This document shows positions 11,566-20,700 of a DNA stretch of 64,000 nucleotides, piece by piece (the stretch's first letter is position 1; every line of letters begins with the position of its first letter). This DNA is from Pycnopodia helianthoides (Eukaryota; Echinodermata; Asteroidea; Forcipulatida; Asteriidae): assembly GCA_032158295.1 (NCBI GenBank), contig CM063247.1, positions 22,853,876-22,917,875 of the forward strand, given 5' to 3'. The position numbers were made by a program, and so were the translations under genes. The notes under the pieces were generated by a model that was not told where the DNA came from, ran no database searches, and was given only the letters and a program-made list of their open reading frames with translations.

Positions 11566-11736
11566 TCAATCGAGCGCAATCACATCGGCGAGGTTGTAAC
11601 CGCTGGCGCTACCATTGCTGGCTGTTCTGCTGGTGCCACTGCTGGTGCTGTTTGTCGTGCTGATGCTGCTGGCACTGCGGATGCTGTTGCTGGAGGCAGC
11701 GAGGTGGTCAAAATAGAGATGTGGCATGTATTGTGA
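11566..11736 (-). CDS. PIAS: PIAS exon 12, C-terminus
   Basis: It starts after ATGATTACAG and ends with TGA at 11566. It encodes [20 protein letters not shown], a Ser/Thr-rich run, and [11 protein letters not shown]. The ending parallels vertebrate PIAS (IPDIISLD type). Confidence 0.9.
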   Translation of the reverse strand, partial: SQYMPHLYFDHLAASSNSIRSASSISTTNSTSSGTSRTASNGSASGYNLADVIALD

Positions 11737-14700
11737 CTGTAATCATAGATAATACAAAATAAACAGAACTTAACGGTTAAGTGATAAATCTCAGTCTAAT
11801 CAACTAAGCTCAACAAAGTAATCAATAACATGTATGAACATCACACAATAATTACACATTCATTGCATCATTAATGTAATGAAGCTACCATACATGTAGT
11901 AATAAATTGTTTCATCTTATTTAATTGTTATCAATAATGCATAAGTCTTAAATCATACACAAATTATAAATTCTAACTGCTGATCAATATGAGTTCCTTC
12001 TCTATGATCAACCTCTTACTTAAACCATATCCTTTAGATTCTATTCTCTTGTGTTCTCCACAGTTTGTATTTTTTTATCTGGCATGACTCCAGTCCTAAA
12101 CAACCTATCAATGAAATCTTAGTCCTAAGCCTAACCTCAATATTAACCATTACCTTTTATTTATAAATGTGAACTGAAATAAACAGCAATGAATAAATTA
12201 AACCACCAGACTGTAGCAAAACAAAAGCAGCCTGACCTACCAGACGCTAAACCACACCGCGCGCATGCACAAGTTATACACAGCAGTACAAAACACCCTC
12301 ATAGTGGATGTCAGAACACAATCTTGTACATTATTATGACAGCTTTCCCCAAAAAATGATAACGATCTACTTGGATGTTGTATAAAAGATAATGAATGTT
12401 TTGCATTCATACAATGGCAAGAATGTTTTCATTCAGTGAAAGATGGAATGATCCATTCAACTTAGCTTCGCCTCGATGAATGGAACAATCCATCTTTCAA
12501 CCAATGACAATGCTCTCACCTTTGCACTCCAACTGTTCATTATTAGTATGTTACAGTTTTGAAAAGTCACTACAGAAACACAACATCCAAACAACAAGAA
12601 ACAGTAATGCTGATTGGACAAAGACAAGATAGAACAAGCGCATACAGAATGAGAGCAGTAAGTTGATTGGACAAAGACAAAATAGAACAAGTGTATACAG
12701 AATGAGAGAAGTAAGTTGATTGGACAAAGACAAAATAGAACAAGTGTATACAGAATGAGAGAAGTAAGTTGATTGGACAAAAACAAGATAGAACAAGTGT
12801 ATACAGAATGAGAGCAGTAAGTTGATTGGACAAAGACAAGATAGAACAAGTGTATACAGAATGAGTGAAGTAAGTTGATCAGATTTTTGGATTTACCTGT
12901 GAATCATTGTGAAGTAAAGAGTACAGATCCATTCCTGTTGACAATAACAAAAAAATTAAAATCACTTACTTTATAAATAGCATTTAATCTGGTAACCTAA
13001 TTCTAGTAAATGTCAAGTAATAAACCACAAAATTCTAGTAATTCTAGTAAGCCAAACTTGTCTGTGCTAACCAGCTCTATGAAGGTGGATATTAATGACA
13101 GAGGTTCCTATGGGTAAGAGACCCTATCAACGAAACGTAGTATTATCAATGATTACAAAAATAAAGTATAACCTTCTTACCAAATGCCAAAATACTTATC
13201 TTGTAAATTGTCCCCTGCAACTTATTGCTTAGCAAGTCAAGTTGTAAAGCAAAGAAGGTGGGCTGACTTTGGGACTTTTTGAACAAGAGCACCGAGTCCA
13301 ATCTCAACTTACCAGGGTAATCTGATGGTGGCATCGGCAGGTACGGCGAATTGTAATCACCAAACAGAGGCATTTGAGAATGTGTTGTCTGACCCAGATC
13401 CATAGATGGTAACAAACTAGAGTGATGCGATGTTGGCAGTGGGGACTGTAAGCTGTAATCTATAGGGTACCTGGTTAGAGAAGAGAAGAATCAAAGCTAG
13501 TTAGTACTCCACCATGCTGATGACTATGTTCAGGAGATCATGGCAGTGGGGACTGTAAGCTGTAATCTATAGGGTACCTGGTTAGAGAAGAGAAGAATCA
13601 AAGCTAGTTAGTACTCCACCATGCTGATGACTATGTTCAGGAGATCATGGCAGTGGGGACTGTAAGCTGTAATCTATGGGGTACCTGGTTAGAGAAGAGA
13701 AGAATCAAAGCTAGTTAGTACTCCACCATGCTGGTGACTATGTTCAGGAGATCATGGCAGTGGGGACTGTAAGCTGTAATCTATGGGGTACCTGGTTAGA
13801 GAAGAGAAGAATCAAAGCTAGTTAGTACTCCACCATGCTGGTGACTATGTTCAGGAGATCATGGCAGTGGGGACTGTAAGCTGTAATCTATGGGTACCTG
13901 GTTAGAGAAGAGAAGAATCAAAGCTAGTTAGTACTCCACCATGCTGATGACTATGTTCAGGAGATCATGGCAGTGGGGACTGTAAGCTGTAATCTATAGG
14001 GTACCTGGTTAGAGAAGAGAAGAATCAAAGCTAGTTAGTACTCCACCATGCTGATGACTATGTTCAGGAGATCATGGCAGTGGGGACTGTAAGCTGTAAT
14101 CTATAGGGTACCTGGTTAGAGAAGAGAAGAATCAAAGCTAGTTAGTACTCCACCATGCTGGTGACTATGTTCAGGAGATCATGGCAGTGGGGACTGTAAG
14201 CTGTAATCTATGGGGTACCTGGTTAGAGAAGAGAAGAATCAAAGCTAGTTAGTACTCCACCATGCTGATGACTATGTTCAGGAGATCATGGCAGTGGGGA
14301 CTGTAAGCTGTAATCTATAGGTACCTGGTTAGAGAAGAGAAGAATCAAAGCTAGTTAGTACTCCACCATGCTGATGACTATGTTCAGGAGATCATGGCAG
14401 TGGGGACTGTAAGCTGTAATCTATAGGGTACCTGGTTAGAGAAGAGAAGAATCAAAGCTAGTTAGTACTCCACCATGCTGATGACTATGTTCAGGAGATC
14501 ATGGCAGTGGGGACTGTAAGCTGTAATCTATGGGGTACCTGGTTAGAGAAGAGAAGAATCAAAGCTAGTTAGTACTCCACCATGCTGATGACTATGTTCA
14601 GGAGATCATGGCAGTGGGGACTGTAAGCTGTAATCTATAGGGTACCTGGTTAGAGAAGAGAAGAATCAAAGCTAGTTAGTACTCCACCATGCTGATGACT

Positions 14701-17700
14701 ATGTTCAGGAGATCATGGCAGTGGGGACTGTAAGCTGTAATCTATAGGGTACCTGGTTAGAGAAGAGAAGAATCAAAGCTAGTTAGTACTCCACCATGCT
14801 GATGACTATGTTCAGGAGATCATGGCAGTGGGACTGTAAGCTGTAATCTATGGGGTACCTGGTTAGAGAAGAGAAGAATCAAAGCTAGTTAGTACTCCAC
14901 CATGCTGATGACTATGTTCAGGAGATCATGGCAGTGGGGACTGTAAGCTGTAATCTATAGGGTACCTGGTTAGAGAAGAGAAGAATCAAAGCTAGTTAGT
15001 ACTCCACCATGCTGGTGACTATGTTCAGGAGATCATGGCAGTGGGGACTGTAAGCTGTAATCTATGGGGTACCTGGTTAGAGAAGAGAAGAATCAAAGCT
15101 AGTTAGTACTCCACCATGCTGATGACTATGTTCAGGAGATCATGGCAGTGGGACTGTAAGCTGTAATCTATAGGGTACCTGGTTAGAGAAGAGAAGAATC
15201 AAAGCTAGTTAGTACTCCACCATGCTGATGACTATGTTCAGGAGATCATGGCAGTGGGGACTGTAAGCTGTAATCTATAGGGTACCTGGTTAGAGAAGAG
15301 AAGAATCAAAGCTAGTTAGTACTCCACCATGCTGGTGACTATGTTCAGGAGATCATGGCAGTGGGGACTGTAAGCTGTAATCTATGGGGTACCTGGTTAG
15401 AGAAGAGAAGAATCAAAGCTAGTTAGTACTCCACCATGCTGATGACTATGTTCAGGAGATCATGGCAGTGGGGACTGTAAGCTGTAATCTATAGGGTACC
15501 TGGTTAGAGAAGAGAAGAATCAAAGCTAGTTAGTACTCCACCATGCTGATGACTATGTTCAGGAGATCATGGCAGTGGGGACTGTAAGCTGTAATCTATG
15601 GGGTACCTGGTTAGAGAAGAGAAGAATCAAAGCTAGTTAGTACTCCACCATGCTGATGACTATGTTCAGGAGATCATGGCAGTGGGACTGTAAGCTGTAA
15701 TCTATGGGGTACCTGGTTAGAGAAGAGAAGAATCAAAGCTAGTTAGTACTCCACCATGCTGATGACTATGTTCAGGAGATCATGGCAGTGGGGACTGTAA
15801 GCTGTAATCTATAGGGTACCTGGTTAGAGAAGAGAAGAATCAAAGCTAGTTAGTACTCCACCATGCTGATGACTATGTTCAGGAGATCATGGCAGTGGGG
15901 ACTGTAAGCTGTAATCTATGGGTACCTGGTTAGAGAAGAGAAGAATCAAAGCTAGTTAGTACTCCACCATGCTGGTGACTATGTTCAGGAGATCATGGCA
16001 GTGGGGACTGTAAGCTGTAATCTATGGGGTACCTGGTTAGAGAAGAGAAGAATCAAAGCTAGTTAGTACTCCACCATGCTGATGACTATGTTCAGGAGAT
16101 CATATCTAAGACTTGTAACAGGTAAGATTAAGTTATAGGGGACCCTTACTAGACAAGCATTGGTTTTTGAAGGCCTCCTTCCACATGCATATCAATTGTC
16201 TGCCTCATACTTCTATTTTGTATTACTTTATTTATTGTTATTGCTATCTAACCATTTTAAGGTTACTCTAGAATCTAGAATGTCACTACAGTATTTACAT
16301 GTATGAGAAAATAAAAGTGTTCAACCACATCTTAAACAAGACATAAAAATGAGCCAATAAATGATTTGTTTTGTGTCATAACTCGGTCAGAAACAACTTA
16401 AAGCCTTATTCAACCACAAAGTCAATTACACTCAATAAATTTGCATAACAATCGTGACAATATCCCTACATCCATGTCACTGTGTGTAATCCAACGGCTA
16501 TTGTCCAAGCTAAGCCTTTCACAACATGAGAGGACCAGTGATTGAATACAACAGTGTATCACTATTGTATAGTTAGCAATGGTCCAGCGACTTTAGTTCT
16601 GTAGTTTACAAGCGATTGGCCTCAATTGATACTAAAGGTCTGCGTGGCCTGCTTGCAAAACTCCGGCTTAGACAGTAATAGGTGCTGGGTTCAAATCCCC
16701 CACCAAACTCAAGCAAATCCCAAACAAATATATATTTCCCCCCACACACAACAAAAAAAACCAAAACAAACAACAACCAAACAAAAAACCAATACAATAA
16801 GATAACCTTAAAAGGTGATACTTCTCAAACTACCTATGTCAATTTTTTATATAAATTGCAACTTTATTTTATATTGTTTAACCCCTCCTCCCCCCTAAAA
16901 AAAATTAAATAATACAAATTTAGTCCCCCCCCCTTTAAATGCCGTGTCCTCTTCTCAACTTGGGCAGAATGTCATACTTGGAAGATGGAAATGATATAAT
17001 AATTACCAGGACTTTTTCAGGTTGAAATAAACATTTCTTTACACTAAAATGACATTGAAAAAAAGACACAGAAAACAATATTTCTCGACATCATTTGATG
17101 ACTTTACTGATAATGCAACTTTCGGCATTTTAAGTTTCAACTTCAAGAAAATCTTTCAAATAAATATTGCTCAATTTTACCAAGTAAGGAAAAGAACTTT
17201 GAAACTTTGCTTTTTCCTGTAGCATCCAAATCCTGGACAAGCCAGAATAATTCTCCATATTAAACCAATATCAAACTATTACTGATTTACTGGTCGTGTC
17301 TGGACGTCAAACAAATTGCTATTTATGCAACCCAGGGTAAGATCTGTTATATAAGTAATATATCATCATGAATTTACACAATGATTCAAACAAAAACAAA
17401 TCCAATATAAACTCTTCAACTAAAAGAGTCAAACCAACACTTTTTAACCATTTCTCTTCAAGTGTTTAATTTTGAAGCGATACATAAAGAAAGAACAATT
17501 AATTTGAGACTGTGGAATGGACAGTTTCTTATCTGCATCAGCACAAGGCACAGAAAATATCAAGTTTGTCAGGTAAGGAACCCTTTGCACTAGTTAGTCT
17601 GATAAACACTCTGGAAAGAATTTTATTTATTTCATTATACAGACCAAACAACACAAACACAGCAGAATAAACAGGAAATTATAAAGAAATGTTTAGTTTT

Positions 17701-20700
17701 AGATATGGGAGAAAACAAAATCTCAATTTGAAAAAAACACCACACATAAGCCACAGCCCAATTTCATAGAACTGCTTAAGCAGAAAATGCTTCTTAACAA
17801 TTTTCTACTAAGCAGAAATGAGCAGGATACCAGTCACAAGTTGTACATGTGACAAGGTGGTTTGGTTGAAACCTTGTTCTGGTAAGCATCTTTCTGTTGT
17901 GCTTAGCTACTTTTTTTGTGCTGATGCAGCTCTATGAAATTGAAAGGGAAAGGGACTGAAAACCTAATCCACATGCAAGGCTCCAGTCCGGGGAGGGATT
18001 CGAACCAGGGTCCACAGAACAACAGGGAAGGAAAACCGTTAACGTCTGATAATCTGACTCAATAATCAAAGGAAAACAGAGGGTGGTTATAACCCCTTGT
18101 TTTATTATTTGCCAATCTAGCGGATTGACTGGCTGATCTAGCTGGTCTGTCCAGAGTAGGGGATGCACATAATGAGCCAAGTATTGAACGGCTACGATGG
18201 TAATGCGTAAGGTTAGCCGCAGTTGGAGTGTCACATTTGTATGGTACTGGAGATAGCACCGGAGAAGGGTGATTTAAGGGTGATACCAACCGTTTATTAG
18301 CCATCGTCAGTGGTGGTGGTGATTTGGGTGATGGAGAGATTACATTAGGCTCAGGGTCATCTTCATCCTCAGTGACTCTCATCGTTGCAGCGCGGTGTTG
18401 AGGTCTTGGGACAGGCTGCTCTTCCTCCTCATCTGTATCACTACTAACTTCTTCTTCTGTCTCATCACCTTCATCTTCAGAGCTGGAGACAGTCAAGTCA
18501 ATGCATTCTACATTGGACCTCTTATTTGGCATGTCCTCGCCTGTACGGTGGAAAATTAAAATAAAATATTGAAGTTTATCGTTTGTAAGAATCACAAAAT
18601 GAATTCTTTAAAGGTACACTGTATAAAAATCTCTTCTGCGAGAATTGCTCTTGAAAAAATACAAAATTTATTACTTCTGCATGCAGAACCTCAAAATCCT
18701 GCAGTAATACTGTATCCTTAAAAACTACACCATTATTGTTACCTATAAAACCAATTTCATTGTAACCTTAAAACAGCCCAACTTCAAAACAACCAAATTA
18801 ACATTGGTATGTTCAAACTCAACGACAAATCTGAGCTACTATGATATGTTGCCATTACTGGTTTGGCAAGATCCCATACACAGCCCAGCATTAACAGACA
18901 TCTACTACCAATGATGTTTCTTAAAGAGGTTGGGCCACGCTAGAGGTCACTCTTTAAAAAAAAGTTTTACATCCTTAAGTACACCTATATCTACCAGGAA
19001 AACAGTGTGACAGGGTTATAGAATGAATGGTTATGCGGTTACAACGCAGTTTCCAAGCCTCTTTTCACCCCCGCCCTCAGGCAAAATAAGAACAGCAGTC
19101 GGTGCCAGAAAGCTGTCTCCAAAAATTAAAAAGAATAGTAACGTGGCAGTACGTACTCCTCTGTCGAACGGCTGTTTGCTGTTACTCATTGAAGCATTGC
19201 TCAGTACAGACCATCCGGGGATTCAGTACGTATAGTGTCATTTTTGGTTTGCTGCCCTCATTTACGGGATTTTTATAAATTTAGGCGGCGGGCCAGTGAA
19301 AGGAGTAAAAACTCCCTGCAAATAACACTTCTTTTGTTAATGTAATATTAACAAAAATGCAACAAATTATAGAAAGCAGAAAACTAAAAAAGAACGTAAA
19401 CTTCAATCACCATGGCACATCCTCTTTAACTATACAGAGTGCCAGCATGACACAGTGATGTCCTGACAATGAACAATGCTCATATTCATCTAAAACCTTT
19501 ACACTAATATGAAATTCAATTGACTTTGTTATCTTTAACGGGAAATTCATTTCGGCCTTTACATCAATAAGTTATAAATACATCAATAAGTTATAAATAT
19601 ATACAAATTACAATACATTAGAATTTACCATTTCAGTACAAAATACATCAAAAATCCATGAAACTTCACTGTATAAGAACACAAAAAGTAAAAGACAAAA
19701 TGTTAAAAGCTAAAAGTTCATTTAAAATTGCTTTTCAAAATATAGGCACATACAAGTAACAAAACGGATAAAATGACACAAAAACGATATAGACAGAGAC
19801 AGTAAAATAGGCCGGTGGTCGCGGTACGAACAGCGCCCTCAAATCAAATAAACTGCCCATCTGACATACCGCATAGCATAACAGAGCTGTAGCTTCGTTT
19901 CTTCTCTGAGAGTGGCTGCCAAGACCCATCTTCCAGGAACTGGATCTCAAGACTGGGCGTATGATGAGCTAAGATCTCCATGAACAAGCTGGAAAGAGAA
20001 TACAGATGATCCATCAATTATCATCAAGTCGTTCATCATTGATTCCAACAGTCACAAATCCTCCAAAATCCTATCCAGGAAGTTGTTGCAGAAAATTTTG
20101 CTTGACAATTTTCTGCTAAGCAGAAATGAGCAGGACACCAGTCACAAATTGTACATGTGTTATGCTAGTTTGGCTGGTAACCTTAATTTGGTAAGCATAA
20201 TATTGTTGTGCTTAGTTACTTTTTGTAACTTAAGCTTAAGCAGCTCTATGAAATTGGGCCCAGATAACAATTGCTTATCACTGGGTCAAGCACACCAATC
20301 TCATCCAAATCCAAACAGTTGGAAGTTGAGTTAAACCATAGAGTGGGGGTATTTTGGAGGAAATGGCACAAAGACACCAGGGAATTAGGGTTAAAAGTCA
20401 AGCCACAACAACAAACCTTTCAATTTAAACTTCAATAGTTATAGGAATCTTCATGAGTTTGTTGGATTTCTTGTAGGCAATGAGCTAAACCGAGGACCAA
20501 GAATAATTGTGACCCGCTCTACAAAAATGTCGCCCAATGCATTATTGTTTAATGGACGTTTCAATTTGTAAAGTATTAAAAAATAAAAAATAAATCTATT
20601 TATGCATGATCATACTTTAGTCTAATTTGTGTCCTTTTGCTTATATGTAGAGCGAAATGGTAATTTTAAACATCAATTTACTTGTAATTCGTTTTCAACA

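Follow-up and report, generated by a model that had tools for sequence, protein, structure and literature searches.

How is one 3' splice site chosen when 25 nearly identical copies of it lie side by side, and how did a conserved gene come to carry them? This question is raised by a tandem array in the genome of Pycnopodia helianthoides, within a stretch of 64,000 nucleotides that was analysed as a whole and is called the window here. The minus strand of the window was found to encode PIAS in full, in 12 coding exons that run from 46182 to 11567 (Table 1). The gene had been named as PIAS by an earlier reading made from the letters alone (hereafter the sequence-only reading), and this identification was borne out: the predicted protein contains the SAP, PINIT and MIZ/SP-RING domains of PIAS SUMO ligases (Pfam: SAP, 1.4e-05; PINIT, 4.5e-28; zf-MIZ, 3.7e-20), the top protein match among the 120 matches listed was a PIAS2-like protein of Asterias rubens, and our corrected model is identical to A. 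rubens PIAS at 587 of 627 aligned positions. The acidic stretch VECIDLT in exon 9 is presumably a SUMO-interacting-type motif.

Table 1. Coordinates of the PIAS coding exons, intron 9 and the acceptor array in the window. A slash marks a splice boundary, here and in the text.
Feature	Positions	Strand	Remarks
PIAS coding exon 1	46182-46159	-	
PIAS coding exon 2	44191-43765	-	
PIAS coding exon 3	36171-36063	-	
PIAS coding exon 4	32912-32822	-	
PIAS coding exon 5	23448-23314	-	
PIAS coding exon 6	22776-22671	-	
PIAS coding exon 7	21317-21083	-	
PIAS coding exon 8	19988-19870	-	exon 8/9 junction uncertain by a few residues
PIAS coding exon 9	18291..18540	-	contains acidic VECIDLT; ends ...MANKR
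PIAS intron 9	13471..18290	-	4820 nt; donor ACG/GTTGGT; holds 24 upstream acceptor copies
25-unit tandem array	13435..16103	-	per unit: intron end, 71 nt; exon 10 start, 36 nt (1 nt less in six units)
Unit 25, functional boundary	13541-13435	-	
PIAS coding exon 10	13313..13470	-	158 nt; donor CTG/GTAAGT
PIAS coding exon 11	12897..12934	-	
PIAS coding exon 12	11567..11736	-	ends DVIALD, then stop

The array is real and consists of units arranged head to tail on the minus strand, from 16103 to 13435. TRF returned a period of 107 bp with 25.0 copies and 98% matches over 13434-16103, the scores for periods 107, 320 and 427 being nearly equal. Splitting the minus strand into units gave 19 of 107 bp and six of 106 bp (units 2, 4, 9, 12, 17 and 21). 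The intron part of the unit reads ATGATCTCCTGA..., followed by TACTAAC, a pyrimidine tract and CTAACCAG, and the exon part reads GTACCC[C/T]ATAGATTACAGCTTACAGTCCCCACTGCC. This split agrees with the unit proposed beforehand, namely TACTAAC, a pyrimidine tract, an acceptor and 36 nt from the start of coding exon 10. The 25 units represent nine sequence types, with a mean pairwise edit distance of 1.26 and a maximum of 3, and their variation is of four kinds: a T/C difference in the intron part, and a C/T difference and deletions in two C runs in the exon part. A 49-nt acceptor core, from CAGCATGG to CTAACCAG, is one and the same sequence in 25 of 25 units, all of which have AG/GT at the acceptor, so that the description of the locus as 25 tandem near-identical acceptors holds. 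The sole AG between TACTAAC and CTAACCAG is found three bases past the branch motif, which is too close for use, and each unit thus offers one clean acceptor. The invariance of the core across all copies could hint at constraint, but divergence over the whole array is too low to distinguish this. A higher-order repeat was considered and rejected, as the lowest p values among 12 lags (0.03 and 0.04) are unremarkable for 12 tests.

The sequence-only reading had correctly placed the true acceptor at 13470, and it had put the intron 9 donor near 18077. The latter position was not supported: A. rubens PIAS runs uninterrupted over the junction (NKR/YPIDY), a join that GTTGGT at 18290 matches with the correct phase, and the donor is therefore 18290. 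All donor scores in this work were obtained with an approximate matrix; by this matrix the donor at 18290 scores -0.34, whereas 18077 was rejected with a score of -11.09, a value equalled or exceeded by 98% of the gene's 2135 GT sites. The sequence-only reading had chosen the GT that most closely precedes a stop at 18059, a choice suggested by the open frame 18290-18059. This frame stays open for 76 codons beyond the intron 9 donor before it meets the stop, and might serve as a C-terminus of PIAS, either alternative or produced by intron retention; the 76-codon extension is absent from the listed A. rubens PIAS2-like protein. In Acanthaster, PIAS has five extra residues at the exon 9/10 junction (NKRASPHRYPIDYS), and the donor position may be shifted there. 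Also in intron 9, GGTTCGAATCC at 17990-18010 resembles a tRNA B box and may belong to a tRNA-derived SINE.

Given the continuity of A. rubens PIAS, a full-length protein requires exon 9 to be joined to the innermost unit. We then followed the reading frames from the other acceptors, any of which had been expected to give 12 codons and then TGA. This was the case for 18 of the 24 and failed for the remaining six, in which the frame either stops after two codons (units 2, 17 and 21) or continues for 24 codons up to the TAA in the following TACTAAC (units 4, 9 and 12). The stops reached from upstream acceptors are 225-2680 nt ahead of the next junction, at the exon 10 donor. A stop more than 50-55 nt before a junction leads, by the usual NMD rule, to degradation of the message. 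With the stops at these distances, decay is therefore expected rather than a short PIAS, and mRNA decay would be a likelier fate for messages using an upstream acceptor than the production of stable truncated PIAS.

The array was further compared with the rest of the assembly (479 Mb, 742 contigs). Allowing up to three mismatches, the 36-nt motif TACTAAC...CTAACCAG had 25 matches in the 479 Mb, all within the array, while its reversed control had none; the repeated acceptor motif is not due to chance. The DNA flanking the array on either side matched over its whole length only itself. A second haplotype or a paralogous array in the assembly was rejected, since the unit together with both flanks was found at a single place. 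The background of tandem arrays was sampled in 20 stretches of 10 kb (200 kb) from five contigs, which contained 58 arrays of period at least 10, 19 of period at least 30 and three of period at least 50 with at least five copies. In the 64-kb window, the corresponding numbers were 17 (period at least 10) and eight (period at least 30). The 19 sampled arrays of period at least 30 were all shorter than 2.67 kb; the PIAS array is large for this genome, and its length is unusual. From the unit lengths of 17 arrays and the 21 PIAS junctions, chance alone predicts 0.22 units per window that span a junction, a figure that includes this array, so that one such case needs no special cause.

Other repeats were noted around the array. 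A second minisatellite (12603-12879; 53 bp, 5.2 copies, 94% matches) starts 18 nt past the coding exon 11 donor and 0.6 kb from the acceptor array, so that two arrays adjoin neighbouring exons of PIAS. About 35 bp upstream of the first array unit is a dispersed repeat of about 130 bp (16138-16270), for which 25 further partial matches were found in the genome, at 74-89% identity. Another long homogeneous minisatellite of the same genome, with 13 copies of 64 bp (98%), is present at L001:6106-6934.

From the anatomy, the identity of the acceptors, the reading frames, the uniqueness of the locus and the density of minisatellites around it, we infer, with a probability of about 0.72, that the array is a neutral minisatellite which by accident engulfed a splice site, a so-called mirage, that its innermost acceptor is normally used and that slips to other units decay. 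Under this model, a 107-bp stretch (71 nt of intron and 36 nt of exon) would have been duplicated, then expanded and homogenised, probably by unequal exchange or slippage, in a setting where minisatellites are abundant. All units upstream of the last one would be spliced out as intron. The acceptor at 13470 would be preferred because no other lies at an ordinary exon length (here 158 nt) from CTG/GTAAGT, a strong donor that scores highest (6.53, approximate matrix) among the 10 scored in PIAS. Moving the acceptor outwards by one unit would lengthen the exon to 265 nt and by two units to 372 nt, while the outermost acceptor would give 2720 nt. Since exon 10 has an ordinary length only when counted from 13470, and its donor is strong, cross-exon pairing should favour the innermost acceptor. 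Exon definition of this kind should also keep slips close to it, so that they would land mainly on the two nearest units, and the resulting early-stop messages would be degraded. The claim that the spliceosome must favour the innermost acceptor was, in this respect, a fair inference. Nearness to the upstream donor, or the order of transcription, would pull the opposite way. With duplicated acceptors in vitro, the donor-proximal one is often favoured, which here is the outermost unit.

Three other explanations were weighed against this model. The array could be an assembly artefact, the real copy number being far lower. What the six shorter units have lost is one C of a C run, and long reads often contain errors of this type; against this, the order of the nine unit types has no clear periodicity (p = 0.03 for the best among 12 lags), the array sits on a 23.4-Mb contig, and the unit with both flanks occurs at one place only, which makes an artefact very improbable. 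Alternatively, in line with the sequence-only reading, in which the array may set the ratio of long to truncated PIAS, the upstream acceptors could be used in a controlled manner to produce stop-containing messages, with the length of the array tuning PIAS level or isoform ratio. Leakage is plausible given 25 identical acceptor cores, and human ABCA7 provides a parallel, in which retention of VNTR units introduces a premature stop and skipping of exon 19 rises with VNTR length (PMC5954066). Unit retention itself, however, was independent of VNTR size in ABCA7 (PMC5954066), and stops so far upstream of a junction predict decay, not a stable short PIAS. We consider such a regulatory role unlikely.

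The array might also correct its own errors. Every unit contains CAG/GTACCC, so that an upstream acceptor could double as a donor: a slip to unit k could be re-spliced to unit 25, giving the correct message, and removal might even proceed in 107-nt steps. The arrangement that defines recursive splice sites, an acceptor directly adjoining a donor, is indeed present in 25 of 25 units. On the approximate matrix, the in-place score of the unit donor is -0.06, close to that of the exon 9 donor, and it falls to -2.43 once the unit is joined to exon 9, beside the weakest PIAS donor scored (-2.21). Such a donor nevertheless looks weak, as 10% of the gene's 2135 GT sites score at least as high as its in-place form and 28% at least as high as its joined form, and AG/GT is ordinary, being found at two of 11 PIAS acceptors (that of exon 4 besides that of exon 10). 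Precise introns are known to arise from AGGT duplications (PMC3443670), and Drosophila ratchet points share the layout of the units but require a cryptic exon defined downstream (PMC8605326). The case for re-splicing is weak, and we hold re-splicing itself to be improbable. We would say the same of its corollary, that a scar-free splice ladder lets the intron tolerate runaway acceptor duplication and that the array could hence grow in a conserved gene.

Choice among equal 3' splice sites has been studied mostly with engineered duplications. PIAS intron 9 provides a natural experiment on this choice, with 25 identical acceptors in a conserved gene, and bears on the extent to which exon definition overrides proximity to the donor. 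The small differences between units make many of the junctions distinguishable in long-read data. Leakage that grew with copy number would turn the array into a natural tuning knob for PIAS, and a lack of leakage would be a strong case for exon definition or for re-splicing.

Judged by its sequence, the PIAS array has the anatomy of a mirage, a kind of structure already known from amphioxus and seen here in a starfish with more copies. Mirages are amphioxus tandem repeats that span an intron-exon boundary, in the globin genes BflGb6 and BflGb9 and in Adh3, and RT-PCR suggests that they are regularly spliced (PMC3087553). As in the BflGb6 mirage, a minisatellite-like tandem duplication takes in the 3' end of an intron and the 5' part of an exon (PMC3087553), in the present case 71 nt and 36 nt in each of 25 units. 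The amphioxus mirages likewise have AG/GT splice signals in their units and show concerted evolution (PMC3087553), and the starfish units all carry AG/GT together with the identical acceptor core. The starfish array differs in having 25 units, as against six and three in two BflGb6 haplotypes, of 107 bp rather than 150-160 bp, and nearly identical to one another, whereas the amphioxus units are 81-100% identical (PMC3087553). It is known from the sequence of one assembly, while the mirages are also documented by haplotypes and RT-PCR (PMC3087553). No starfish case was found in a literature search for which subscription journals were largely out of reach.

The other systems share single features with the PIAS array. 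The human ABCA7 intronic VNTR, whose expansion accompanies exon skipping, resembles it in placing a splice signal in each tandem unit beside a coding exon, with misuse leading to a premature stop; unlike the PIAS array, its 25-bp unit starts with a 5' splice donor, and the effects of its length have been measured in people (PMC5954066). In intron gain by tandem duplication of AGGT, each unit likewise contributes an AG/GT and two units frame a potential scar-free intron (PMC3443670), whereas in PIAS both the acceptor that was duplicated and the intron around it were already present. Drosophila ratchet points, the sites of recursive splicing, also juxtapose acceptor and donor, with a pyrimidine tract followed by CAG/GT, but the PIAS unit donor looks weak and the units are in tandem, not spaced (PMC8605326). 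Set beside these systems, the PIAS array is read here as a long, recently homogenised mirage.
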